Shown piece after piece: positions 519 through 25,800 of a DNA stretch of 36,773 nt. The stretch is from IMG/VR virus record IMGVR_UViG_3300029442_000014, positions 1 through 36,773 of that record; one strand, given 5' to 3'. The notes under the pieces were generated by a model. The model saw nothing but the letters and a program-made list of their open reading frames with translations, was not told where the DNA came from and did not search any database. Numbering within the stretch: the first letter of the stretch is position 1; each line of letters begins with the position of its first letter. A program made the translations under genes and the position numbers. The DNA is from a virus.

Positions 519-851
519 TTATTTACTGGTGTTCTTTTTAGTGATGAAGTTCTTGATCTGCGTAGCAAGACCTTTGTGCATCTTATCACCAGCTTCCAGG
601 TCGCGAATCAAAGCATCCGCAGTGTAGATCAAGCCGGCAGCCGCTTTGTTGATGCGGAGTTCTTCCTTGGCTTTGAACCAGGACAACGCGGGCTCGGTAT
701 CGATCATAGGCTGAAGACCAGAACCGTTAGCTTTCATGACATGAGAGACATACTCCTTAGGAAAGGAACCATTTTCGAGCATAGGATAGATCTGTTGAGG
801 GTACTTACCTACGAGACGAGCGAACTGGATTACCGTAGATAGGTTCGACAT
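519..851 (-). CDS. Hypothetical small protein, paralogue of the gene at 2937-3341
   Basis: Encodes 110 residues, starting at an ATG behind a GGAGGTG ribosome site. No known domain is recognised. It aligns along most of its length with the 134-residue product of 2937-3341: both have a G-x-(4)-(I/M)Y-(P/S)M-(V/L)-x-NGS-x-PKE segment (NGSFPKE here, NGSVPKE there), then NG, then TEAKAFF/TEPALSWF, and a charged C-terminal helix. The N-terminal half with NGSxPKE resembles a short DNA-binding-like helical fold, but this is not established. It is the last gene of the minus-strand series and carries leader element 1 upstream. High expression is plausible from its clean ribosome site; role unknown. Confidence 0.75.
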   Translation of the reverse strand: MSNLSTVIQFARLVGKYPQQIYPMLENGSFPKEYVSHVMKANGSGLQPMIDTEPALSWFKAKEELRINKAAAGLIYTADALIRDLEAGDKMHKGLATQIKNFITKKNTSK

Positions 852-868
852 AATGCACCTCCGAAATA

Positions 869-899
869 GCAGCCTCTCACCTGCTTATGTCCTCGCTGT
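869..899 (-). promoter_or_regulatory. Leader hairpin element, copy 1 of 9
   Basis: Minus-strand layout: ACAGCGAGGAC, 4 bases, stem GCAG, loop GTGAGAGG, stem CTGC, then about 29 bases including GGAGGTG before the ATG at 851. The same layout recurs before nine consecutive small genes. The loop and the GAGGAC block are fixed while the stem sequence differs between copies with pairing kept, which is the signature of a selected RNA (or cruciform) structure. Likely acts on translation or mRNA processing of the next gene. The loop resembles, but does not match, the PyrR-binding loop (UCCAGAGAGG, from memory). The GTG of the loop sits 9-10 bases from GAGG, so it could also be a start codon for a leader peptide. 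Confidence 0.8.
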
Positions 900-908
900 T
901 ATGGAATA

Positions 909-1244
909 CTATTTGCCTACGCGATTGATCAAACGATGAAAGCCCATCCGACGATAAGCCTTATCGCATTCCATGTACGTGTAGCCGACGCCTTGGAACT
1001 TGACAACAACAACATCCATCAGCTCGTCGCTGTCATAGGTTTCGAAGATCGCATCCATGGCAGCCTTCAGGACATAGGTATCCTTCTGAAGTTTCGACCA
1101 TTTGCCGTCGTAACGGGAATAGTACGCGCGATCGAATTCCTTCTTGTTGATGCCCTGGAAAACGATCTCCATGTCGTCGAAGTCGCTCGCTCCGTCGAGA
1201 ACTGCGTTCAACGCGGCCAGGATAATTTTCTGTGTCTTAAACAT
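909..1244 (-). CDS. Hypothetical small protein with internal repeat
   Basis: Encodes 111 residues; ATG behind GGAGGTG. No family recognised. Two halves look alike: residues near 22-47 contain DFDDMEIVFQG followed by EFDRAYYSRYDG, and residues near 71-101 contain DSDELMDVVVVKFQG followed by ECDKAYRRMGF. This suggests an internal duplication of a roughly 30-residue unit ending in an aromatic, basic helix. It lies between leader elements 1 and 2 in the minus-strand operon; its stop codon TAG overlaps the 5' flank of element 1. Probably a cytoplasmic early or accessory phage protein; function unknown. Confidence 0.75.
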   Translation of the reverse strand: MFKTQKIILAALNAVLDGASDFDDMEIVFQGINKKEFDRAYYSRYDGKWSKLQKDTYVLKAAMDAIFETYDSDELMDVVVVKFQGVGYTYMECDKAYRRMGFHRLINRVGK

Positions 1245-1260
1245 AGAACACCTCCGATAT

Positions 1261-1292
1261 GAGAGCCTCTCACCCCTCTATGTCCTCGCTGT
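1261..1292 (-). promoter_or_regulatory. Leader hairpin element, copy 2 of 9
   Basis: Minus strand: ACAGCGAGGAC, 3 bases, stem GAGGG, loop GTGAGAGG, stem CTCTC (one G-U pair). The loop GTG is 29 bases upstream of the ATG at 1244. Same arrangement as copy 1 with a different stem. Confidence 0.8.
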
Positions 1293-1308
1293 AATGGAAT
1301 ACTACTAT

Positions 1309-1773
1309 TTACTTAGGAAAGTAATCCCAGCACAACTTGGCAGCCACCTCCTCTAATTCTTTCATCTTTCTGGCACGCTCCTGGATATCGCGGTCATCGG
1401 TCGGAACGATTTTAGGCTCTTTCCCAGGACACAGCTCGAGAATGTAGAACTGGTCTACACGCCCTTCCCAGTACATCTTTTTGACTCTACCACAGTACAC
1501 GCTGGAGTTCTGTGTCTTTCCTTCGCAAAGACCGGTCCAACCGGCTTTGCAGATCAAAGAGACTTTGTAACGGTATGACTCCTTGCCATCATCACTGGTA
1601 TACCGGATTAGAGAATCTGTTAGCTCGATATAGGCATGACGACGCATTATGCCTTCTGCATCAGGAAGAGACACCCAATTCTTCCAACCATCATTCTGGA
1701 TGCCTTTCTTTTGAGTCTTGACGGGTACACTGAGACCTGTGCCAGAATTGAATTGATTGATCTTTTTCTCCAT
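1309..1773 (-). CDS. Hypothetical protein
   Basis: Encodes 154 residues from an ATG with GGAGG 12 bases upstream. The N-terminal 35 residues are polar and lysine-rich; the central part (about 45-120) is predicted beta-rich with several aromatic residues and four scattered cysteines, and the C-terminus is a charged helix (RARKMKELEEVAAKL) ending CWDYFPK. No catalytic motif or known family is recognised. It is one of nine small minus-strand genes that each carry the leader hairpin. Function unknown. Confidence 0.75.
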   Translation of the reverse strand: MEKKINQFNSGTGLSVPVKTQKKGIQNDGWKNWVSLPDAEGIMRRHAYIELTDSLIRYTSDDGKESYRYKVSLICKAGWTGLCEGKTQNSSVYCGRVKKMYWEGRVDQFYILELCPGKEPKIVPTDDRDIQERARKMKELEEVAAKLCWDYFPK

Positions 1774-1803
1774 GGTGAAATAATACCTCCTTAAGGTATG
1801 TTT

Positions 1804-1834
1804 GTAAGCCTCTCACCTTACGAGTCCTCACTGT
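1804..1834 (-). promoter_or_regulatory. Leader hairpin element, copy 3 of 9
   Basis: Minus strand: ACAGTGAGGAC, 2 bases, stem GTAAG, loop GTGAGAGG, stem CTTAC. The loop GTG is 43 bases from the ATG at 1773. The A-T-rich stem is unlike the other copies but pairs perfectly, which is strong covariation evidence. Confidence 0.8.
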
Positions 1835-1873
1835 ATGACCCGAAAATACGCGATAAAGAACTACCAGAAGCGA

Positions 1874-2353
1874 TTAATCATTGAGATATACAGCGTTTAA
1901 AGCGCTATATGCGCGTCTTACATCCTCCACTGTATTTTTGTTGTAATGATTCGCGATCGCGTCGTCGGACATGCCTTCCGACCTTTCAAGAAGAGCTTCC
2001 AGAGCACCAAGCGCGACAACCAAATCATCCATAGCGATCATCATCTGTATCTCTCTAGGAGCTTTTCCGCAGAACATTTTGTACAGTTCGCGAGTTCTGA
2101 AACTGATATAGATACTGGTACAGCGCTTCCAGGATTCTGGAAACTGCTCTACGAGTATTCTCATGTTAGTCACCAGGTTCTGTGGATACACGTAGAAACG
2201 GTTGCGCAACGGATTACACCACATAACCACATAGCCATCCTTGTCGATACTATCGATATAGAACGTATGATTCTCGAGGTTGACGCCAGTGCAGATAGCG
2301 ACGCCTTCAGTAGACCAGGACAGGATAGCTTTGTTGATGTTGTTGTTAGACAT
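1874..2353 (-). CDS. Hypothetical protein
   Basis: Encodes 159 residues from an ATG preceded by AGGGGTG. The N-terminal 70 residues look beta-rich (alternating hydrophobic residues, WCNPLRNRFYVYPQNL), followed by helical segments; the C-terminal part NHYNKNTVEDVRRAYSALNAV resembles the end of a helix-turn-helix-like unit, though this is only an impression. No known family is recognised. Member of the leader-hairpin operon, between elements 3 and 4. Function unknown. Confidence 0.75.
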   Translation of the reverse strand: MSNNNINKAILSWSTEGVAICTGVNLENHTFYIDSIDKDGYVVMWCNPLRNRFYVYPQNLVTNMRILVEQFPESWKRCTSIYISFRTRELYKMFCGKAPREIQMMIAMDDLVVALGALEALLERSEGMSDDAIANHYNKNTVEDVRRAYSALNAVYLND

Positions 2354-2376
2354 GAATAAACACCCCTAATTTTTAC

Positions 2377-2406
2377 ACGGCCTCTCACCCGTTGAGTCCT
2401 CTCTGT
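2377..2406 (-). promoter_or_regulatory. Leader hairpin element, copy 4 of 9
   Basis: Minus strand: ACAGAGAGGAC, 3 bases, stem ACGG, loop GTGAGAGG, stem CCGT. The loop GTG is 35 bases from the ATG at 2353. A reading frame from this GTG stays open for 72 codons out of frame with the real gene. Confidence 0.8.
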
Positions 2407-2415
2407 TATGGAATA

Positions 2416-2862
2416 CTATTGATGCTTACGGCAATTCGGATTTTTATTAACATATTGCTTACAGCCGTAGCAATCAGCACAATCGGAGCAGGTGTCGCAT
2501 GCGCAGCTGTGGCAAGGGTTCGCCGGATACAGTCTGCCGCACATCTTGTTGATGATCAGCAAACCAGAGGCGAAATTGGCTTTGATGTCATCGGGCTGGT
2601 CGTGAGAATCAGCGATAACATCAGCATAGTCATTGTTTACGAGATCGAGACAATGTCCCAGCTGCAACTGGAGCGCTTTGTTCGACTGGTGATACTGCTG
2701 GACGTCGTAGAGTACGGAGCTGATGGTCTCGAACATCATCCAGCAACCTTCGCCGTCTTGGTGTTCGGCTTCAGCGATGTACTCTTCGCCAAGGATAGGG
2801 AACGCGATGCGGATGGACTCTTTGCATTCGTTGATCCAGGATTTGTTCGTGAAATTAATCAT
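2416..2862 (-). CDS. Hypothetical protein with cysteine-rich C-terminus
   Basis: Encodes 148 residues beginning MINFTNKSWINECKESI. The ATG at 2862 follows AGAGGTGTCACC; a longer in-frame start at the GTG in the leader hairpin (2895) would add 11 residues and is less likely but possible. The body is acidic and helical. The last 35 residues contain eight cysteines in CxxCxC, CxxC and CxxC spacings (CHSCACDTCSDC, then CYGC) plus two histidines, which suggests one or two bound zinc ions or an iron-sulfur site. No family recognised; a nucleic-acid or protein-binding zinc module is a reasonable inference only. Confidence 0.75.
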   Translation of the reverse strand: MINFTNKSWINECKESIRIAFPILGEEYIAEAEHQDGEGCWMMFETISSVLYDVQQYHQSNKALQLQLGHCLDLVNNDYADVIADSHDQPDDIKANFASGLLIINKMCGRLYPANPCHSCACDTCSDCADCYGCKQYVNKNPNCRKHQ

Positions 2863-2883
2863 GGTGACACCTCTACTATTTTT

Positions 2884-2913
2884 GCAGCCTCTCACCTGCG
2901 TAGTCTTCTCTGT
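2884..2913 (-). promoter_or_regulatory. Leader hairpin element, copy 5 of 9
   Basis: Minus strand: ACAGAGAAGAC, 3 bases, stem GCAG, loop GTGAGAGG, stem CTGC. The block has GAAGAC in place of GAGGAC. The loop GTG is in frame with the downstream gene (11 codons upstream of its ATG at 2862). The hairpin and the following dozen bases are identical to copy 7, indicating recent duplication. Confidence 0.8.
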
Positions 2914-2936
2914 AATGACCTAGATCGCGAGGGATG

Positions 2937-3341
2937 TTACTTCGTCTCAGTGGCAGGCGCGTTTTTGGCGGTCCAGTACTTGCGAAGAGCTTTGCCCAAT
3001 TTCTTGTCGTCCGCTTCGACCATCGCTATGAACGCTTCTGCAATCATCGCAGGATTAGCTTCGACTCTCTGAACGGCCTTCTTGTCTTTGACCTGTTCAC
3101 GAGCGGCAAAGAACGCTTTGGCTTCGGTGACTTTGATGTACTGCTGCTCTTCGCCGTTCTTGTCACGGCGAATGACGATGAGCTCCTTGGGAACGGAACC
3201 GTTCTTGACCATGGAGTACATGTGAGGACCTTGGATCCCTAACACCTTGGTACCGAAGTGGTAAATAGACATTTCATCGTAGCTCTTCACCATTCCATGC
3301 TCTGTCACCGTCCGCAGATAGCCTTCATAGTCTTTTAACAT
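2937..3341 (-). CDS. Hypothetical protein, paralogue of the gene at 519-851
   Basis: Encodes 134 residues; ATG behind GGAGGAG. Related to the 110-residue product of 519-851: shared MYSMVKNGSVPKE/IYPMLENGSFPKE, the following DKNG region, a TEAKAFFAAREQ segment and a charged C-terminal helix. Compared with its paralogue it has about 20 extra N-terminal residues. The conserved NGSxPKE turn between predicted helices suggests a small helical, possibly DNA-binding, fold, but no established family is recognised. Its leader hairpin (copy 6) lies unusually far upstream (86 bases) with a short ORF in between. Confidence 0.75.
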   Translation of the reverse strand: MLKDYEGYLRTVTEHGMVKSYDEMSIYHFGTKVLGIQGPHMYSMVKNGSVPKELIVIRRDKNGEEQQYIKVTEAKAFFAAREQVKDKKAVQRVEANPAMIAEAFIAMVEADDKKLGKALRKYWTAKNAPATETK

Positions 3342-3355
3342 GTTGACTCCTCCTA

Positions 3356-3427
3356 CTATTTGATTTTTACTAACGTAGTCTTTCCATCCTTGTCGGTTAC
3401 TTTGACGTAGCCCTGAGTGCCTCTCAC
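3356..3427 (-). CDS. Possible 23-residue leader peptide starting in leader hairpin 6
   Basis: Starts at the GTG of the hairpin loop, with GAGGAC positioned as a ribosome site, and reads MRGTQ then GYVKVTDKDGKTTLVKIK before TAG. The peptide composition looks protein-like rather than random. Its stop falls inside the ribosome site of the next gene (ATG 3341), so translation of the two could be coupled. It may equally be a remnant of a degraded gene. Confidence 0.3.
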   Translation of the reverse strand: MRGTQGYVKVTDKDGKTTLVKIK

Positions 3428-3445
3428 CACTCTAGTCCTCGCTGT
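3415..3445 (-). promoter_or_regulatory. Leader hairpin element, copy 6 of 9
   Basis: Minus strand: ACAGCGAGGAC, 2 bases, stem GAGTG, loop GTGAGAGG, stem CACTC. It is separated from the next annotated ATG by 86 bases instead of about 30. Just upstream GTTC-CC-GAAC could form a small extra hairpin. Confidence 0.8.
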
Positions 3446-3459
3446 TCGGGAACTGTGGG

Positions 3460-3873
3460 TTAGACTAGTCGACAATCCACCTCCAAGCCATCTTCGTCCA
3501 ACGCGTACCAGGTTACGTATTCACCCATCTCGGGATAGATGAGCGGGAGAAGTTCATTGACGATCGCTATTGCTTTAGCCTGAGTATCAACTTCCCACTG
3601 TACGTCTTTGATTCCAGTACCAGGAGAAAATCCTCCAGACACTTCGAATTCGTGATACTTTTTGGTATACTGATAGTACAACTCATCGCTATGAGTACCG
3701 AAATCCACTCCGTAGTTGATGATCTGAGACTTGATGTCGAAATCTTCGACGCAGATGTTGATGCGGTCCAGAGCACCCAGTACAAGAGCTTCAAGCTCTC
3801 CTTTGGTAATCCTGATGTTGTTGACATTGAAACTGATCGAGAAATTGTTGACTTCTGTTACTTTCTTGGACAT
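3460..3873 (-). CDS. Hypothetical acidic protein
   Basis: Encodes 137 residues; ATG preceded by AGAGGTGTAGT. Strongly acidic, with an N-terminal beta-type stretch (NNFSISFNVNNIRITKGELEALVLGALDRI) and aromatic-rich middle (DELYYQYTKKYHEFEVSGGF). No signal peptide, membrane segment or catalytic motif is evident and no family is recognised. Within the operon it lies between leader elements 6 and 7. Function unknown. Confidence 0.75.
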   Translation of the reverse strand: MSKKVTEVNNFSISFNVNNIRITKGELEALVLGALDRINICVEDFDIKSQIINYGVDFGTHSDELYYQYTKKYHEFEVSGGFSPGTGIKDVQWEVDTQAKAIAIVNELLPLIYPEMGEYVTWYALDEDGLEVDCRLV

Positions 3874-3893
3874 ACTACACCTCTACTATTTTT

Positions 3894-3923
3894 GCAGCCT
3901 CTCACCTGCGTAGTCTTCGCTGT
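3894..3923 (-). promoter_or_regulatory. Leader hairpin element, copy 7 of 9
   Basis: Minus strand: ACAGCGAAGAC, 3 bases, stem GCAG, loop GTGAGAGG, stem CTGC; loop GTG 32 bases from the ATG at 3873. Nearly identical to copy 5. Just upstream the palindrome AATGGCCATT may add a short second stem. Confidence 0.8.
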
Positions 3924-3944
3924 AATGGCCATTGACCGGATAGA

Positions 3945-3962
3945 TTAGATAGCAGCTACCAT
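3945..3962 (-). CDS. Five-codon micro-ORF MVAAI with strong ribosome site
   Basis: On the minus strand AAAGGAGGGTGAT precedes ATG, which reads MVAAI and then TAA. A near-perfect ribosome site in front of five codons suggests either a regulatory leader peptide or the stump of a lost gene. It sits between a terminator (3990-4018) and leader element 7. Confidence 0.25.
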   Translation of the reverse strand: MVAAI

Positions 3963-3989
3963 ATCACCCTCCTTTCTGATAGGCTCGAC

Positions 3990-4018
3990 AAAAGGGACTA
4001 ATTTCTTAGTCCCCTTTA
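3990..4018 (-). terminator. Rho-independent terminator (minus strand)
   Basis: Minus strand reads AAAGGGGACTAA, loop GAAA, TTAGTCCC and then TTTT: a stem of about 11 bp with one bulged G, a stable tetraloop and a T-run. It lies just after the stop of the gene at 4025-4237, so it would separate the upstream part of the leftward operon from genes below 3950, or act as an attenuator. Confidence 0.7.
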
Positions 4019-4024
4019 GCTTGC

Positions 4025-4237
4025 CTACCGATGGGTGTTGTAGCGTACGTCTTCTACGCAGCTCAGGAGGAAGTCGTCCATGATGTCGGAGTAATTTCTC
4101 ATCCAATAATCCTGATTGGCAGGATTATTGTTGGTCTGAGTACGAATCAGCGCTTTGATGATGTTACGACGACGATTTACGGGGAGTTGATTAGCTATGG
4201 CTCCGAGTTCGCGAATGATTGTTTCTACGGTTGACAT
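4025..4237 (-). CDS. Hypothetical small protein, paralogue of the gene at 4298-4507
   Basis: Encodes 70 residues starting MSTVETIIREL. The ATG at 4237 lies 6 bases after GAGGTG; a GTG three codons upstream overlaps the ribosome site and is rejected. It is mostly helical with a basic centre (VNRRRNIIKALIRTQ). The C-terminal segment YWMRNYSDIMDDFLL matches YWVRYHSNEMSPLVL of the neighbouring gene, marking the two as paralogues. Family and function unknown. Confidence 0.7.
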   Translation of the reverse strand: MSTVETIIRELGAIANQLPVNRRRNIIKALIRTQTNNNPANQDYWMRNYSDIMDDFLLSCVEDVRYNTHR

Positions 4238-4257
4238 GTATAACACCTCAGATAATT

Positions 4258-4288
4258 AAGGGCCTCTCACCCCTTGAGTCCTCACTGT
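4258..4288 (-). promoter_or_regulatory. Leader hairpin element, copy 8 of 9
   Basis: Minus strand: ACAGTGAGGAC, 2 bases, stem AAGGG, loop GTGAGAGG, stem CCCTT; loop GTG 33 bases from the ATG at 4237. Translation from this GTG would give only MRGP. Upstream GTT-CGT-AAC may form a small extra stem. Confidence 0.8.
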
Positions 4289-4297
4289 TACGAACTA

Positions 4298-4507
4298 CTA
4301 CCCGAGGAACTTGTTGGCAGCTTGCAGAACGAGCGGAGACATTTCGTTGGAATGATAACGGACCCAGTAACGGACATTGTTGACATTACCGTTGGCAAAG
4401 GAGATCATGAGGTTGGAAAGGATACGAACGATACGCTCTTCGGCGAGACCATTAGACTGCAGGTCACGAGCAACGATACTGAAATTACGGATGTCTTGAA
4501 ACAACAT
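4298..4507 (-). CDS. Hypothetical small protein, paralogue of the gene at 4025-4237
   Basis: Encodes 69 residues starting MLFQDIRNFSIVARDL. ATG at 4507 follows GAGGTGTTCATA; an in-frame GTG in the leader hairpin (4540) would add 11 residues. Helical, with the paralogue signature YWVRYHSNEMSPLVL near residues 48-62. The gene pair probably arose by tandem duplication together with its leader element. Function unknown. Confidence 0.7.
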   Translation of the reverse strand: MLFQDIRNFSIVARDLQSNGLAEERIVRILSNLMISFANGNVNNVRYWVRYHSNEMSPLVLQAANKFLG

Positions 4508-4527
4508 TATGAACACCTCGATTATTT

Positions 4528-4558
4528 TGAGGCCTCTCACCCTCATAGTCCTCACTGT
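4528..4558 (-). promoter_or_regulatory. Leader hairpin element, copy 9 of 9
   Basis: Minus strand: ACAGTGAGGAC, 2 bases, stem TGAGG, loop GTGAGAGG, stem CCTCA; loop GTG 33 bases (11 codons, in frame) from the ATG at 4507. It is the most upstream copy; genes above 4600 lack the element. The 5' flank AATAGTAGTTCGT is shared with copy 8. Confidence 0.8.
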
Positions 4559-4602
4559 TACGAACTACTATTCGTCTAAAGCGGCTCGCGAACGTTTATT
4601 TG

Positions 4603-4628
4603 CAGTTTAATGTCTTGCTTAGGACAAG
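4603..4628 (-). repeat. 26-bp intergenic repeat, copy A
   Basis: Matches 23 of 26 positions with 4860-4885. Minus strand reads CTTGTCCTAAGCAAG then ACATTAAACTG. CTTG and CAAG can pair as a small hairpin. Placed between the gene at 4676-4831 and leader element 9. Confidence 0.55.
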
Positions 4629-4654
4629 GCACATGTTTCTTCGGTAACATGTGC
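4629..4654 (-). terminator. Hairpin after the 51-residue gene, possible terminator
   Basis: GCACATGTT (4629-4637) pairs perfectly with AACATGTGC (4646-4654) around an 8-base loop, downstream of the stop at 4676. No T-run follows on the minus strand, so it may stabilise the mRNA 3' end rather than terminate. The loop ACCGAAG also occurs in the hairpin at 476-503 but on the opposite strand. Confidence 0.35.
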
Positions 4655-4831: not shown

Positions 4832-4859
4832 GATGTCACCTCCTTTTTTATCGGATTGA

Positions 4860-4885
4860 CAGTTTAACGTCTTGTCTAGGACAAG
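4860..4885 (-). repeat. 26-bp intergenic repeat, copy B
   Basis: Second copy of the repeat at 4603-4628. Here the minus strand CTTGTC-CTA-GACAAG forms a perfect 6-bp hairpin followed by ACGTTAAACTG. It lies between the genes at 4895-5023 and 4676-4831, about 30 bases before the latter's start. Confidence 0.55.
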
Positions 4886-4894
4886 TAGTACAAA

Positions 4895-6280: not shown

Positions 6281-6301
6281 ACTATATATGGCGCGCACAG
6301 G

Positions 6302-6383
6302 ACAAACAAAATTTACAAAAAGAGCTCGCTATACAAACAAAATTTACAAAAAGAGCTCGCTATACAAACAAAAATTACAAAAA
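6302..6383. repeat. 31-bp tandem repeat, 2.6 copies
   Basis: Two identical 31-bp units (6302-6332, 6333-6363) and a partial third (6364-6383) run head to tail; each starts ACAAACAAAATTTACAAAAA and ends GAGCTCGCTAT. They lie upstream of the terminase promoter, where iteron-like or protein-binding repeats or a packaging-recognition site would be expected. No coding frame of substance covers them. Confidence 0.8.
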
Positions 6384-6464
6384 AGTCAACACCTGTCCCC
6401 TCATCCCCTTTTAGCAAACACCCCCGGGGGCCCTGAATTGGTCACCCCCCTGACCCAAAAAAAG

Positions 6465-6494
6465 TTGACACCCCTGCAAGATGTGTAGTATAAT
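6465..6494 (+). promoter_or_regulatory. Consensus sigma-70 promoter for the structural operon
   Basis: TTGACA (6465-6470), 18 bases, TATAAT (6489-6494). Transcription would start near 6501, just ahead of the AAAGGAGG ribosome site of the small terminase. C-rich repeats (CACCCC-type blocks at 6390-6475) flank and overlap it and could be repressor sites. The -10 context TGTAGTATAAT recurs at 35392-35402. Confidence 0.8.
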
Positions 6495-16800: not shown

Positions 16801-19800
16801 ATGGCGAAAAAGGGCGACAAGGAAATAAAAGTAGTACTAAATGCGGATCTAAACATTAAAAAAGTATTAGCCGCGTTACCTGCATTATCAAAAGCAGTAG
16901 AGTCATCTACTAGCGGACTATCTGCAGAGTTGATTAAAGCTCTTAATGAAGGTTTAGGAGTTATTGAGCAGCATAGTGCATCGATATTAAAAAAGTTTCG
17001 GGATGACAAACAAGTAGGTAAAGCTTCTGCGATTAAAGCAGCTTTACCAGATTTTAAAAACCCGGCCGACTTCCTGTTGAATTTGAAAGATATGGAGCCT
17101 GCAATTGCGCAGTTGAAGAAACTGCTCTCTGATGCTGCCTATACAGATATTACACCTGCTGTACTTAACTCGGCAAAGCAAGTAGCTAGTTCTAAAAAGA
17201 AAATAAATGACGCTGCTAATAAAGAAGAAGTAAAAGCAACTAAAGCAAAAGTAGACGAGCAGTTAGCGGCAATTAAAGCGGCGGCAGCTGAGGCAGTAGC
17301 TAATGCGCCTACGTTAAAAGTTACTCTCGAAATAGAAGCAATTAAAGCTAAAATGGATGAAGCTGCTATTGCTCGGGATCCGAAAGCGTATGAAGCACTA
17401 CGTAAAACATATGAGCAAAAGAAATTACAAGAGTCACAAGAAATTGCGAAAGCTACCAAAGTAGAGTCAGATAGACTACTTGATATAGAGAAGAAAGCTG
17501 CTGTTGAGCGGCAACGTGTATTAGATAATATTAATCTCGAACAGCGATTAGCAGCGCAGCGTCGGCGTAAAAAGCAAGAAGACGATGATAAAGAAGCTGC
17601 TAGATTGGCTTTATTTAAACCCGGAGAGCGTTTAGATGAAGCTTTTGGCATGACTGTTACCCCTCCTTCTACATTGCGTAGAAAAGAGCTTATAGGAAGA
17701 GTGTTTACACCCGAAGAAAAAGAAGAGCTTCGTAAGGACGCTGAAGAACGCCGTAAGGCAATGACAGAGCAACAGAAGATAGATGATGCTCAAGCAGCAA
17801 AAGATTTTGCAGAAGAGCAAGCATTACTTGAAAAACGCGAGACGCTTCGAATTAACGCCGCTTTGCGTAGATATAGCAGGACTAAAACAAACCAACGCAT
17901 TATGCGAGATACAGCACGTAAAAGTACTATTGCTGATGTATATCCTATAGAAGAACTTCCTACATGGGATCCTGAACAGCCAGCAACTAAGCCCATGGGA
18001 GCTACCGATAACTATATAGCACATCAACAAAAATATGCAATTACTACTGCTCAATCGGAAGCAGCTACTTTAAGACTGGTTACTGCTTTGGAAGAGCTAA
18101 AAGCCGCACAACAAGGAGTATATTCTCTCGATACCGAAACAAATAAGAAAAAGTACCTCTATGATGATCCTGGCGTAGCTCCTAAAGTTGCAAGCGACGC
18201 GTGGATGACACGTTCTATTCAAACGGCAGCACCTGGCGTAGAAGGTACGATGACTGATATACTTCACATGACTGACAGAGGTAAGCTGTCGCAGAAAATG
18301 GCTACACAGTTACCTATGCTCCAGAAACTTTTGAATGATCCGAACTTACTACTTGTCGGTAATAATATTGCCTATGACGTATACCAGATGATACAAAACG
18401 GTTTCCAAGTTCAGAATAAGCCGTTGAATTTGAATACTTTTAGTAATATTATACGAAGCGAAGCTACAGCAAAGCCGCTAGATTTGCAACAACTAGCAGA
18501 AAGGTATGCCGCTGATGAGTATAAAAAAGGAGGCGCAAAAGCAGTTGTTAAAGACTCGGGAGTATCACAGACTACTAATAAAGGACAGAAGTTCTTAAAG
18601 CCTACAACTATTGACTATGGTAACTGGGATGCTGAAGCTGCAGTAAGTATTTATGCTGGTATGATGAAAGAGCTCAGAGCTGAGCTTACTACTAAATATA
18701 AAAATGCGGGTGTAAATCCTGCAGACGTAGATAAAGTAGTTGACCAGGTAGTTAAGCAGTTAGTCGACCTAGGCGTACGGATGTCTCAAACACTAGTAAC
18801 CAACTTCTATAAAGAGTCTAGTAAAATAGGCGGAGCCAATCAAGCAGATCCACGAATAAAAGAAAAAATAACTCGTCCCGCAATGATGTCTTTCGTAAAT
18901 GCTCCTATACTTGCTGAGCAGATAAAAAATAATGCTTTACCTGATGCTGCACTTGCAGCACTAACGGCACAACAACGAATTGCAGCTGCAAGAGATTTAC
19001 CAGCACAGGCAATTAAACTTGCTGGTGGTGTAATTGGTACTGATAGTGGTTTAAGCCCCGCTAATCTTATTAAACAATTAGAAAATCAGATAAACATATA
19101 TATGCAGGCTCAGAAGGAAGGCAGGCAAGGAAATGTTACGCCTACCTTTTTAGAGTCTTTTAAACATATACAGGCACAATTTTCTCCTGGTTCTTTGGTA
19201 GGACAGATTGACAGGAGTTCTGCCGATCCTAAGAAAATTATTAAGCAATTTCAATCATTGAAATTATCAGCGTCTATGGTGCCTAATGAGATGAAGCTTT
19301 TTGAGCCTACGGTAGAAAAGATCTCAGATAAAGCTAATGCGATACTGAAAGTAATTGATGAATTAAAATCCATCAGTGTATATATGAATGCCGAAAAGAG
19401 TACGGCTTCTAGAAAAGGAGCGGCTTCTGAGTATTTACAATTCACCAATCGTTTGGAAAATATGAAATCTACTGCTATGCTGATCAATAAGCTGAACACA
19501 CAGTTCAGAGAAATGTTACTGAGCGGTGCCGATTACGATAGTGCAGCTGTACAAGATGTACTGGCACAAATAAAGAAACAGACAATACCGTTTGATAAGC
19601 AAATTGCAGAAGCTGCATCGATCACAGTACCAAAAACTAAAAACTTCCCATCGCTGCAACAGCCTTATGACAATATTATAGATAGAATGTTTGACATGAT
19701 TCGCGATGCGCGTAGTATCAATGACGTAAGCTTATCTACTCCTAAAGGATGGACCGGTACACGTGCTGCATTACCTGCAGAAACATATGCTTTAAAAGAT

Positions 19801-22800
19801 ATCAAAGCATTAGCTGCACAAGTTAAAGGATCTGCTGCTCTTACTGAAAGCGGTGTAGCTACAGGAGCAGTTTCTGCGGACATGCTATCTAGTCTGCAAA
19901 AATCTATACTAGCAGACAATGCTAATATGATTATTTCTCAACTTGGTAAGCAAACACTGGACTTCAAGAAAATGGTTACTAAATTAGGTAAGATGGAGAC
20001 CAATATTTCTCCCGCAGCACAGCAGAATCTGATTGCTTCTATGGCAACAGTACAGCAAGCTGCTAAATATCAACAACGTATGGAAAAATATTTGGGCGGC
20101 CCTGTAGCGCAAGCAAATCCGGCAATTACTGATGATGTCAGAAGTAAAATGGAAACACGTGCCGCTACGATGATGCATCTGGCGTTCCGTCAGTTCCAGG
20201 ATACGTTAACTACTGCATTATCTGGAGCAATGAAAACACCCTTCGCGGTAGACGCACGTAAGCTACTGGATAATATGCCTTTAGTCAACGCAGGATTCCA
20301 ACGTGAAAAAGGCGACATGGAACAATTCCAATCTAAACTGTACGCCAATGCGGTATATTCATTATTGGGTAGAAAAGAACGTACTACTCATCGAGTAGAA
20401 GACAGTGATATATTTCAGCAAGCTAGTCAGTTTACTATTGAAGCAAACAATATGCAAGAACGTCTTTATGCAAAAGATGATATAGGTCAACGTGTTGCAT
20501 TTGAAGACCAGCGAACTACTGCCACTTTCTATAAGAATGACAAAGCAACCATAGGCGCTAAAGTAACTGAATTGGAAGCAATGGTACGAGATATCACTGC
20601 TAGCTTAGACGAATTAAAGGCTAAAGCAGTAGAATATGCTACTCCTCCTCCTGATTCAGAAGCTGCTTGGAATCCTAAAATAGTTGAAGCTAATAAAGCT
20701 GCTATTGGTAGAACTCAGGATTTATTGGCAGATGCTAAGGCCGAGGTAATGCAGGTTAAAACATTACTTGACCATCGTGTAGTAATGGATTCTCAACTAC
20801 TAGCATTTAAGGAACTGGATGAGACAGGGCGTACAGGTATTATAAACCCTGCAGCTATGGAAAATGCAGTGCGTAATGAGAAATCTATACGTGATGCTAT
20901 AGTAAGATTGACTAGTCAAATAAAGATTGCTCAAGAAGGTCTGAAAAGTGGCGTAAAGTATGCTATTAAAAAAGGTGTACCTGCCGATAGTGCAATTTTA
21001 GCCGACTATCAAGCAAAGGGTATAAGTACTCTTGATTCGGCTAATGAGCGATTAAGTCTACTACATAAACAATACATAGAAGTATTGTCAGCTAAACAGG
21101 AAGCAACAGATGCCATACTCGGCGCTACACCTGAAGGCAAAGAGAAGATAGCCGTACGTGACCTGAAAGCTAAAAAAGAGCAAATTCTTCGCCAGACCCG
21201 AAAGGCGTCTCCAGGCGAACGGGCCGAATTGACTGCACAATTAGATAGCATCGATAAAGAGTTATCACAGTATGTTGATTCCATTGATGTACGGTTAGCT
21301 AGTATTAAAGAGTTGTTAAAGATACATCGTGCAATAGCTACTGGTACAGATGCTGATAAAGTATATGAAAAGTCTTTAATAGACACCAGGGAAGAACTGA
21401 AGCGTACACGTCGCGGAGCCCCTCCAGGCGGAGGCGCCTCTGATAGAGAAAAACAAAGAGTTACTTTACAAGATATAGAAGCTGCTAAATTAGCTTATAC
21501 TGCTGATTATACTCGTGCTGTTACTACTGGTGGTACTGCAGGAGAATTGCAGAGTATTGAAAAGGCTATATCTGATTTAGAATTAGCTAGAGTATTAGAA
21601 ATCAAAAAATATACTGCACAACAAATGGAAGATCCAGGACTGATGCAGGCTCTTCAACGAGAAGCGAATGCTACAGCGATGGCAATGATTAAGAAATCAA
21701 TGAATAATGCTCTAGCGTCTGCTCCTACAGCAAGTGTAGAATCTGTACGCTTAAATATGGAGCTTACAGCTCTTAATAAACGTACCAAAATGCCGTTAAC
21801 AACTGAGCAATATCGTTCGGCGGAAAAGAAAGGGCTTGAACAAGAACGCCTAGGACTGTTACAAGATCTTGGTAAAGCTCCTGTAGATTCTGCTGAGTAT
21901 AATAAGCTGGTCAAAGCTCTTAATACACTCGACACCGTTTTTGAAACAATGTTTGGTCTCTATAATAAGCGTATATCTACTGCACGTGCTTTAATAACAA
22001 ATTTAGTTGCTAAAGGTGATATGGAGTCTCCTGCATATGCAGCAGCTATAAAACAGTTAGAAGAGGCAAAGAAACAAGCATTTTATGGTAAAGGAAATGC
22101 TCCCGGAACCTATCAAGCAAAAGCAGCACAGGAAGATAAAATAGCAAGTTCTGTCGGATTAGTCAATGCACGTTTAATGCAGTACGTAAACATGGCTGCT
22201 ACTTCTGATCCTAGCACTGCAGATAATAAACGTAGTTTACAAGATATTGAAGCAGGATTAAGTCATGCTATCTTTGATAAACTGAAACTCATAAGCAAGA
22301 CACCTATGACACAGCGTGATACTGCGTGGGAAAGAAGTTTATGGATAGAAGCGGACGCTCAAGCGTATATGATGATAAAAAATACGCTGGAGAAAAAGCT
22401 CAGTAGCGTATATGCAGGAGAAAAACCTGAACAAACTAATAATATTCAAATAGCTTACGAAGCTTTAAGGTTACGTAAACCTGCACCTCTTGGTTCTGGT
22501 AGGCCATTAGATGCAAAGATAAACGATTTACAGAAGCAATCTCAGGCAGAAATTACCAAGATAATGGGAGAATATTCTGCTGGACAGTTTACAGAGATGT
22601 ATACTGCTATTAAGAATGCTCTTGCAAATCCACAGTCTGCTTTAGGTAGTCTACAGGCACAGATAAATCAGGCAATGGGAATAAAAAATACCGCTGCAAA
22701 TTCTCAGAAAATGATGATGGCTGGTCCTATACAGGCAATGAAAATGTCTGCTACTACTGGGTTAAAAGATATCATGGACCAGGTAATGACTACTACTCCT

Positions 22801-25800
22801 AAAGGATCTGCTGGGTATCCTGCACTAATGCGACAAGCAGAAGCCTATAGAGATACACTAACTAAAATTGCTAATATTAATAAAGAAGTATTCGGCGAGC
22901 ATGCCACTGGTGCACAGGAGAAGACAAGAGGATTCTTCAGTTCTATGATTCGTGCAGCTACTGCTTTAGGAGCTGCTTGGTATATGATTAGTCGTATACA
23001 AGTAGCATTCCAAAGTCTTGTAATGCCGGGATTGACATATGCAAGATTAATTGAGACTACTAATGTAGGATTTGCTGCCATACTGATGTCAATGACTAAG
23101 TTGAATGGTCAGTCACTTACATGGGTTCAATCAATGAATATGGCCGCTGATTTATCTAAAGAAGTGACAGATAATGCTCTTCGTTTTGGACTAGATGCAA
23201 TTGAACTACAAAAGCTCATTCAAGGTGTCGTAGGTGCAGGTCTCGGTTCTAATATGTCACTCGAACAAATTATCAGATTATCTACAGTTGCAGCCTCTGC
23301 TATTAAGCAAATTGGATTACCTGATACACAGTTCATTCAAGAAGTTCGAGATATGATGCAGGGCGGTATTCAGATACAGAGTTCCGTTCTTGCTACGCAG
23401 TTAGGTTTGACTGACGCGATTGTCAATCAGGCCCGTGCATCTGGAACGGTATTTGAAATGCTTATGGAACGGATGTCTGGTTTCGCTGCTGGACAATCTG
23501 CCGTATTTGATACTCTTGACGGAAAAGTAAACATGACTGTTGACGCTTTCAAACGCCTTTCAGCTGAAGGCGTGGCTCCGTTGATTAATACGGCAAAGCC
23601 TGTGCTCGATTTCCTCTTGAAAGAAATGATTACAAACTTTGACGCTTTCAGAAAAGGTGCTTCTCCTGAATTCAATACTACTTTTATAACAAAAATGCAA
23701 GAGGCAATACGTACTTTTATAAAAGTATGTAGAGATGCTATTAATGTACTTGAAGTTCTATACAATGCTTTTAAAATAGTAAGTAAAGTATCAGATTGGT
23801 TACCTGGTTCTGGTACTTCTCAATTAGCAGCAGTACTTATTTACTGGTTCGGTATTAGGAAAATAATGGTAGCTCTTCCTGCAGCAGGTAAAGCAATTGT
23901 AGCAATGTATCAAGAAATTAAAGCGGCTGCATACGCTGCATCAATTGCACAAACACTTGCTGGAGGAACTGCAACTACAGGTACTACTGCTGTTGCCGGT
24001 GCTGCTGTTGCCGGTGCTGCTTCTAGAGTAATATTAGGCTCCGCAGGCCAGGTAATAAGTACTGTAGCACCTGCAGCTGCCGCTGGTACTGGTATAGCAG
24101 GAGCACGTGCTCTTGTAGCCGGCGGAGGATTAGGTGCGGGCATATTAGCTGCTTTTGGCGGCGCTGCTGGTATTGCTAGTGTTGCTCTTCCAATAATATT
24201 AGCAGTAATTGCTACAGGCGCGATTGCATATTATTTAAGTAAGAGCGGTTATGGTAGTGCTTTACCTACAGAAAAAGCTCCTTCTATAGCAAACTTTACT
24301 GCAATGCGTAAAAAGTATGATAGCCCTCTCGAAGGTGAAGATGCTGGAGAGATTGGTAGTCTCTACGAAACCTATCAACGAGAGATAGTTCTTATTGATG
24401 ACAAGCGTAAAGAACTGTTAGAGACGTTCCGCGTAGGTAATATTGATAAAGAAAAGCTCACCACCGAACTTACCGCCCTATATGAAAAAGAAGTTGCAAT
24501 GGATATCGAGCGACAAAAAGTTGTTAAAGAGGCTCTCGAGAAGCAATTACTAGCTTTAGGTGCTCCTTTAGTCGCGTCGCCAGATCTTGATATCAGCGAT
24601 ATTATCAATAGAGGCGAATATGTTGGTAATGTTACTGTAGGAGAATCTGATGCTGTACAGGCAGTTAGAGCTAAGATTGAAGCAGTAACCGCTGAGATAC
24701 AAGCACTGTTTAACATCGGTAAGTTAGCTAGAGATAAAGCAGCTACACTTGCTGGTATCGAAGCTAAAAATGCCACTGTTAAGCAACCAGAAATCGAAGC
24801 AATTCGGAAAGCAATTTCTGAGTATCACAGTAACCGTATTGACATGGAAGTATCAATTGCAAAGAAGAGCAATGAGCTTATACTGCAACGGTTAGAAAGA
24901 TTATACTCCGCTCGTGGTATTTCCTCAGCTGATTATGTAGCTAAGAAATTAGCAATTGAATTAGCTAATATTGATTTGGATATTGCAGCTGCGAGACAGA
25001 AGCAAGGACTCATTATTAATGAGATGAGATTGCTACTCAATAATATGGTTACTACAGTACGTGATGCCATTAAAAATGCAAACACTGATGTAACTAAACA
25101 AAAAGTTAGAGCTACAAGCATGGGGGATTTGGTTGATCTTACACAGAAAAATGTAGGTCAGTATAAAGTAGGTTGGATGCCAGGTAGATATAACGCACAA
25201 GAAGATGGCGTATATGGTCAAGTAAACAGCTCTATCCTGTTAGATTTTCAGCGGGTAATGAACTGGTTAAGTATTAATCAACCAGGACAAACAACAGTTA
25301 CGAGTACTAATCGTACAGGAGATCCTGGTGCTCATGGCGGAGGATTAGCATTCGATCTTCAAAATGCTAGCTGGTATGGTAAAGAGGTCAGAGCAGGTTC
25401 ACCTGAATGGGTTGAAGCACAGAAAATGATTAAAGCATTCACCGATATGGGTCTTACTGTATTGAATGAATTAAATCCCGAAGATGCACGTAAACAGTAT
25501 AAAGATCCAGCAAATGCTCCTGCTTGGGGAGGAGCGCATTTAGATGTACGTGTAGATAATTGGGCAGAATTACTATCAATGCCTAAGACAGGATCTGCAG
25601 CACAATTTAACCAAGACGTATATGGCGCTCCTACAGCAGAGAAGGAAGCTGTTAAACAAGGTTTAATAGCAGTAGCAAAAGCAGGTTTAGGGGGCCCCAT
25701 GTCGGCGGGTAATGGCATGGCACGTATTGATGCAGAAGTTGCTGCAGTAATGGCTAGACTAGGTATTAGGCCGAAAGAAGTTAGTCCTACAGTTGCTAAT

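Follow-up and report, generated by a model that had tools for sequence, protein, structure and literature searches.

We identified a candidate regulatory RNA in the leaders of phage genes, composed of a short hairpin with an eight-nucleotide loop and a conserved single strand on its 5' side. Nine copies are present in IMG/VR virus record IMGVR_UViG_3300029442_000014, of which positions 1 to 36,773, a stretch of 36,773 nucleotides (nt) referred to here as the window, were analysed. That the element is a selected, covarying RNA structure is near certain. In addition, we propose, with a probability of about 0.5, that it may be a stand-alone interdigitated double T-loop module (IDTM) that docks the elbow of transfer RNA (tRNA) in phage messenger RNA (mRNA) leaders and controls translation.

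A covarying hairpin in phage leaders

The window contains the octaloop GTGAGAGG nine times, always on the minus strand; 0.71 occurrences are expected from dinucleotide shuffling, and none of 100 shuffles reached nine. In all nine, the sequence ACAGNGARGAC lies 7–8 nt 5' of the loop, and the loop is closed by a stem of 4–5 base pairs (bp) whose sequence varies. An earlier reading of this DNA (the original prediction) had placed nine elements with an invariant loop at exactly these positions and had described seven different stems, all of them paired; both descriptions are correct, and the stem of copy 2 (1261–1292) includes one G·U pair. A covariance model built from homologues recovers exactly these nine elements and nothing further in the window, so that the structural genes are without the element, as had also been claimed.

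Selection on the structure, previously deduced from covariation among the nine stems, is borne out by 36 distinct copies. Their stem cells are paired in 98.2% of cases, compared with 57.7% after shuffling, with 66 double-changed cells compared with 19 and a covariation score of 0.867 compared with 0.161. When the helix is slid by one column, pairing drops to 40–52%. Stem pairs 1–4 include 12 G·U and 3 A·C combinations (p=0.018), an excess that favours the coding-strand RNA as the acting strand.

Our database scans were pattern-based; the copy and locus counts are thus lower bounds and the family is probably larger. The hosts of metagenomic contigs are mostly unassigned. The scans yielded at least 68 distinct stem-bearing copies, spread over about 50 contigs of phages and loci of prophages or mobile elements. 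Within IMG/VR, the exact pattern is present in at least 31 contigs; nearly all have a stem that pairs perfectly, its sequence mostly differing from copy to copy, followed by a ribosome-binding site (RBS) and ATG. Among 84,980 genomes of bacteria and archaea, one scan found at least 20 loci, mostly in Chloroflexota, with further examples in Paenibacillus, Cytobacillus, Thermaerobacter, Desulfobacterales, and Bryobacteraceae. Several phages besides that of the window carry two or three copies ahead of different genes, and at the bacterial loci examined the neighbouring genes look mobile-element-like. BLAST searches of named phages with the element gave nothing convincing, and we found no account of such an element in the literature. 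Searches against Rfam 15 gave no match at the gathering threshold in the window, only chance-level matches at E<10, and no family for the element in the element loci, where tRNA and skipping-rope RNA alone reached the threshold, elsewhere in the loci. As far as Rfam is concerned, this supports the earlier statement that no known family has this consensus.

In the Chloroflexota group (L062, L064, L065, L068, L069, L072, L075, L077, L078, L080, and L081, including one Bryobacteraceae bin), a long terminator-like hairpin, the element, and a second conserved hairpin are followed by a gene for a 76-amino acid (aa) protein of unknown function. The L065 copy adjoins primase, SSB, DnaN-like, and RadC genes and probably belongs to an integrated element or plasmid. 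Plasmids may also carry the element in a Thermaerobacter bin (L079, 3322–3703, minus strand), where a copy precedes a SpoVG gene beside ParAB and replication-relaxation genes.

Two pentanucleotide rules describe the conserved letters, AGNRA for the single-stranded ACAGNGA and UG[A/C]RA for the octaloop GUGAGAGG, referred to here as T-loop 1 and T-loop 2. The first search pattern fixed the letters of the loop; positions were then relaxed separately and new matches judged by stem retention. With residues 3–5 of T-loop 2 relaxed (GTG-NNN-GG), the new stem-bearing copies before genes had solely AAA or CGA, and other loop words came with no usable stem and RBS. Relaxing residues 1–2 (TG) gave stemless matches only, while relaxing residues 2–5 of T-loop 1 (AGNGA) gave one stem-bearing variant, ACAGTAA. 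The GGAC linker is variable (GGTC, GGCC, AGCA, ATAA), and model-based matches in Chloroflexota add the loop GTGCAAGG (UGCAA) and CCAG. Homologues with changed loops and unpaired stems, which the original prediction had named as evidence that would count against it, were sought by these relaxed scans; loop-changed matches were stemless chance occurrences, and stem-bearing ones before genes kept the rules. The overall rule is NCAG-N-R-A ... G-UG-[A/C]-R-A-GG, in which both T-loops have invariant residues 1, 2, and 5 and a purine at residue 4; at residue 3, T-loop 1 accepts any base and T-loop 2 has A or C. Residues 1, 2, and 5 of T-loops form two central base triples (PMC4810234), and the six fixed residues of the element are the corresponding ones.

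Likeness to RNAs that bind the tRNA elbow

Interlocked T-loops that grip the tRNA elbow have been described in only three RNA classes, the L1 stalk of 23S ribosomal RNA (rRNA), RNase P, and the T-box, and a review foresaw further classes of such RNAs (PMC4810234). The published consensus for the T-box IDTM is AGAGA and UGxRA (PMC7583486). At the level of sequence, the element is a member of the double T-loop motif, since its loop and ACAGNGA together are the consensus of this known tRNA-docking motif, a correspondence that the original prediction had not noticed. The predicted T-loop fold is probable.

In element-carrying hosts, NCAGNRA followed by GGTGNRA is present in 11 of 11 RNase P RNAs, compared with 1.1% of control windows, and in at least 11 of 26 T-boxes from four such hosts, compared with 1.6% of controls. 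J11/12–J12/13 of RNase P RNA (RF00010) has the two halves in the same order as the element, and its 5' AC and 3' GG flanks mostly agree as well. However, RNase P RNA is a ribozyme of about 370 nt with the P12 helix between its T-loops, and it bears no relation to the element outside the module. The RF00010 model found no match in the window or the element loci, and detected RNase P elsewhere in the same genomes.

The distal IDTM of T-box Stem I (RF00230) is likewise part of an mRNA leader that precedes the gene under control and has the same pair of T-loop consensuses, arranged around a helix in the same 5'–3' order, and the upstream modules of the tandem arrays described below share T-box-like extended loops (e.g. 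CC-GTGAGA-TGAT in L040). In the element, however, T-loop 2 would directly cap the stem as an 8-nt loop and T-loop 1 would be a 5' single strand joined through RGAC. Moreover, the T-box has a specifier loop, a T-box bulge/discriminator and a terminator, whereas the element, a module of about 30 nt, is without all of these and precedes phage genes rather than amino-acid genes. The leader between cistrons is just 50–65 nt or so, with no conservation outside the module. The RF00230 covariance model found no match in the window or the element loci, though it detects T-boxes in the same hosts, and we found neither a T-box specifier codon nor a T-box/discriminator pairing with the tRNA 3' end.

For the L1 stalk of 23S rRNA, the likeness lies in the predicted fold class and the proposed use of the tRNA elbow (PMC4810234, PMC5309774), and its context differs from that of a phage leader element. 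The PyrR binding loop (RF00515) has CCAGAGAGG, which is like the T-loop 1 side of the element. In the four PyrR leaders checked, the CAGAGA half is shared and the GUGNRA half is absent, in keeping with the merely partial likeness noted earlier. The loop sequence and attenuator of a PyrR leader were not found with the element, nor did Rfam report this family in the window.

Proposed action beside the start codon

In 50 of the 67 copies, 21–35 nt separate the end of the loop from the start codon, 25 nt being the commonest distance; copies from the same phage family do not count as independent. In the Chloroflexota group this distance is 52–61 nt, with an extra hairpin of about 30 nt in between. 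An upstream same-strand open reading frame (ORF) ends within 150 nt in 51 copies, and in 26 of these the element follows the stop codon of that ORF by 8–16 nt; closer stops are rare (4 nt in one case, overlapping the element in another). Given the usual footprint of a ribosome, the folded element would be left just free both by a ribosome terminating upstream and by one initiating downstream. The original prediction had placed an element before each of nine genes in the window, which holds for eight, at 21–35 nt from loop end to ATG, and fails for element 6. A variety of genes lie downstream (PAPS-reductase-like, PcfJ-like, ASCH, Csx3, SpoVG, and many unknown), and the flanks contain no conserved recognition sequence beyond an A-rich stretch before the Shine-Dalgarno (SD) sequence.

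Several direct roles for the conserved letters were considered and rejected. The GTG of the loop shows no frame preference relative to the real start, as a hidden start codon would (16 of 54 in frame, distances 18–43). Extra SD or standby pairing by the loop or by GAGGA is contradicted by the L040 and L041 copies, which are without GAGGA and keep ACAGNGA, and the loops GTGAAAGG and GTGCAAGG preserve the T-loop rule instead of pairing with the anti-SD.

The spacing is what a ribosome-directed translation enhancer might be expected to show, and this is the main rival to tRNA docking, although we regard it as rather improbable. In such an enhancer, the module at the mRNA exit side of an initiating 30S subunit would recruit or hold that subunit, through a ribosomal protein, the E-site region, or a ribosome-bound tRNA, and would not sense free tRNA. 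The narrow distance to the start codon, the clearance from upstream stop codons, the greater linear distance where an extra hairpin intervenes, and the presence of copies ahead of eight of nine successive cistrons with unrelated downstream genes are all compatible with this function. However, a generic enhancer should be common, yet bacterial genomes rarely carry the element (one strong and one weak match in 299 Bacillota, five in 251 Chloroflexota, three weak in 247 of a third phylum), and the SD-masking helices and tandem arrays of antirepressor leaders described below resemble a switch rather than a constant enhancer. An mRNA processing or stability site, in which a nuclease would recognise the hairpin or the hairpin would act as a protector between cistrons, is also compatible with an intercistronic position spaced from both translating ribosomes. 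We consider this very unlikely, because the element is always near a start codon and not at 3' ends or mid-operon, including at antirepressor genes without a near upstream ORF, and because a cleavage site would have no need of the T-loop rule.

The classical protein operator has this layout, a small fixed-loop hairpin beside the SD, and several phages carry two to nine copies before different genes. An RNA operator at which a host or phage RNA-binding protein represses or activates translation nevertheless ranks after the enhancer and seems unlikely to us, as phages of Bacillota, Chloroflexota, Desulfobacterota, and others would not be expected to share one protein, variation tracks T-loop geometry and not a word for linear binding, and elements of RNase P and the T-box match each of the two halves. 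A single trans-acting regulator for all nine genes, as suggested originally, is unsupported. Unrelated hosts have phages and mobile elements with the same element before unrelated genes; this distribution makes a universal bacterial partner (tRNA or ribosome) more likely than a dedicated phage protein.

At least eight downstream genes encode phage antirepressors: Bro-N (L009, L026, L063, L086), AntA (L040, L041, L043), and Rha (L016). Tandem modules are present in the leaders of three of these lineages, with four modules in L040/L041 (AntA), three in L043 (AntA), and five in L063 (Bro-N/KilAC); module 2 of L063 and module 1 of L041 have a less regular form. These arrays, that of L041 included, are enclosed by helices predicted to cover the SD. 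Module 1 displays a compensatory change, GCGGA/TCCGC in L040 versus GTGGA/TCCAC in L041. In L040, L043, L052, L063, and L016 the SD is paired by a predicted helix around the module or modules, which is CCTCATAA/TTATGAGG in L043 and L063 and 17 bp long in L016. The 5' flank of element 8 in the window is also able to pair with its own SD region (predicted duplex, -14.6 kcal/mol).

A general link to antirepressor genes was rejected, as eight named phages with related antirepressors are without the element. The idea that tandem arrays are common in Bacillota was likewise dismissed, the three matches in 398 genomes being at chance level beside one for a reversed control. A GGGTTATCAAA-type hairpin directly upstream is common to L040, L041, and L052. 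In L086, about 1.4 kb separates a skipping-rope RNA (RF02924; 7770–7855, minus strand) from the Bro-N gene that carries the element.

For tRNA docking we propose the following arrangement. T-loop 1 would be the AGNRA of single-stranded NCAGNRA, reaching back over an RGAC-N2–3 linker, and T-loop 2 the UG[A/C]RA of the octaloop G-UGMRA-GG capping a covarying hairpin of 4–6 bp. The two would interlock to form a flat platform that stacks on the tRNA elbow, as in T-box Stem I, RNase P, and the ribosomal L1 stalk. Docking of a tRNA elbow beside the SD would then set or switch translation initiation of the adjacent downstream gene. In the antirepressor class, where the leader holds tandem modules and a closing helix would mask the SD, tRNA occupancy could throw the switch. 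We infer the three-dimensional fold, tRNA as the partner, translation as the controlled step, and the sign of the effect.

Several observations weigh against tRNA docking. The connectivity of the element is unlike that of the T-box and RNase P, and we found no anticodon-reading specifier or acceptor-sensing part in it, so that recognition would be non-specific among tRNAs. Double T-loops could also serve something besides tRNA binding, and identification as an IDTM relies on ten residues and their pattern of variation, part of which was fixed by the first searches, a circumstance that the relaxation scans mitigate. The isolated hairpin is weak (-4.6 to -7.3 kcal/mol for the nine window elements) and, in context, is not always the predicted minimum-energy fold of the window copies; it is covariation, not folding energy, that supports it. 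Pairing between a copy's own flank and SD is not significantly better than in swapped pairs (p=0.068), so that SD masking by the 5' flank does not hold in general for simple copies. Finally, the next good SD and ATG after element 6 (at 3341) are about 78 nt past its loop, with a 23-codon reading frame between.

Phage context and significance

Elements and genes of the window, with the tandem arrays of other loci; the functions of genes 1–9 are unknown (TL1, T-loop 1; TL2, T-loop 2, both as predicted)
Feature	Position	Strand	Description
Element 1	869..899	-	ACAGCGA (TL1), GGAC-ATA, stem GCAG/CTGC, octaloop GTGAGAGG 873-880 (TL2 = TGAGA); 49.5 bits
Element 2	1261..1292	-	ACAGCGA, GGAC-ATA, stem GAGGG/CTCTC (one G·U), loop GTGAGAGG 1266-1273
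Element 3	1804..1834	-	ACAGTGA, GGAC-TC, stem GTAAG/CTTAC, loop GTGAGAGG 1809-1816
Element 4	2377..2406	-	ACAGAGA, GGAC-TCA, stem ACGG/CCGT, loop GTGAGAGG 2381-2388
Element 5	2884..2913	-	ACAGAGA, AGAC-TAC, stem GCAG/CTGC, loop GTGAGAGG 2888-2895
Element 6	3415..3445	-	ACAGCGA, GGAC-TA, stem GAGTG/CACTC, loop GTGAGAGG 3420-3427; exceptional copy
Element 7	3894..3923	-	ACAGCGA, AGAC-TAC, stem GCAG/CTGC, loop GTGAGAGG 3898-3905
Element 8	4258..4288	-	ACAGTGA, GGAC-TC, stem AAGGG/CCCTT, loop GTGAGAGG 4263-4270
Element 9	4528..4558	-	ACAGTGA, GGAC-TA, stem TGAGG/CCTCA, loop GTGAGAGG 4533-4540
Gene 1	519..851	-	110 aa; ATG 21 nt past loop end of element 1, SD GGAGGTG
Gene 2	909..1244	-	111 aa; stop codon ~9 nt 5' of element 1
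Gene 3	1309..1773	-	154 aa
Gene 4	1874..2353	-	159 aa
Gene 5	2416..2862	-	148 aa
Gene 6	2937..3341	-	134 aa; paralogue of gene 1
Gene 7	3460..3873	-	137 aa
Gene 8	4025..4237	-	70 aa
Gene 9	4298..4507	-	69 aa
Tandem array	L040 4100-4300	-	Antirepressor leader
Tandem array	L041 2310-2440	-	Antirepressor leader
Tandem array	L043 9190-9310	+	Antirepressor leader
Tandem array	L063 6900-7150	-	Antirepressor leader

The nine leftward genes of the window gave no informative family match in a comparison with PHROGs. Genes 1 and 6 are paralogous (32% over 100 aa, E 1e-8), indicating that the block was partly expanded by duplication. The window represents a siphovirus-type phage with a terminase, a portal, a major head protein, and gene-transfer-agent-like tail proteins, and its structural proteins have their relatives mainly in phages of Alphaproteobacteria. 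Two copies of a second repeated hairpin (plus-strand CAGTTTAAYGTCTTG...CAAG) lie upstream of the nine-gene block at 4601–4631 and 4855–4887. About three tandem copies of a repeat of about 32 nt (ACAAACAAAATTTACAAAAAGAGCTCGCTAT) occupy 6300–6390, between the leftward and rightward gene blocks. The terminase operon, unlike the leftward block, is headed by a sigma-70 promoter matching 12 of 12 positions (TTGACA-18-TATAAT; 6465–6494, plus strand).

The tail-gene region contains an ORF of 3606 aa (16801–27621, plus strand) with a sub-threshold match to DNA_pol_A_exo1 (3'–5' exonuclease) at residues 493–625 (E 2.8e-4), no PHROG match, and no polymerase domain in Pfam or PHROGs. A phage that encodes so large a protein of unknown role and carries nine hairpins ahead of early-looking genes brings to mind action at the DNA level, such as a hairpin promoter for a virion RNA polymerase of the N4 type. 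Such promoters have a hairpin of 5–7 bp with a 3-nt loop on the template strand and accompany a gene for the virion RNA polymerase. We consider this explanation highly improbable: the loop of the element is 8 nt rather than 3 nt, coding-strand G·U exceeds A·C, the spacing is tied to the start codon, the 3606-aa protein has no RNA polymerase domain, and ordinary prophage genes carry the same element.

Whatever its ligand, the element represents an undescribed, strongly covarying family of leader RNAs that is absent from Rfam 15. It is also a candidate for a fourth class of elbow-gripping RNA, of about 30 nt and found in phages of several phyla. We suggest, tentatively, that it could be the first tRNA-elbow receptor RNA of viruses and the fourth natural class of such RNAs, and that the abundance, charging, or damage of tRNA in infection may control translation of early and antirepressor genes, in some phages by way of multi-module arrays that mask or free the RBS. 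The tRNA pool is the target of many anti-phage defences. If tRNA is indeed bound, phages would read the state of host tRNA and link it to their early genes and, through antirepressors, to the switch between lysis and lysogeny.

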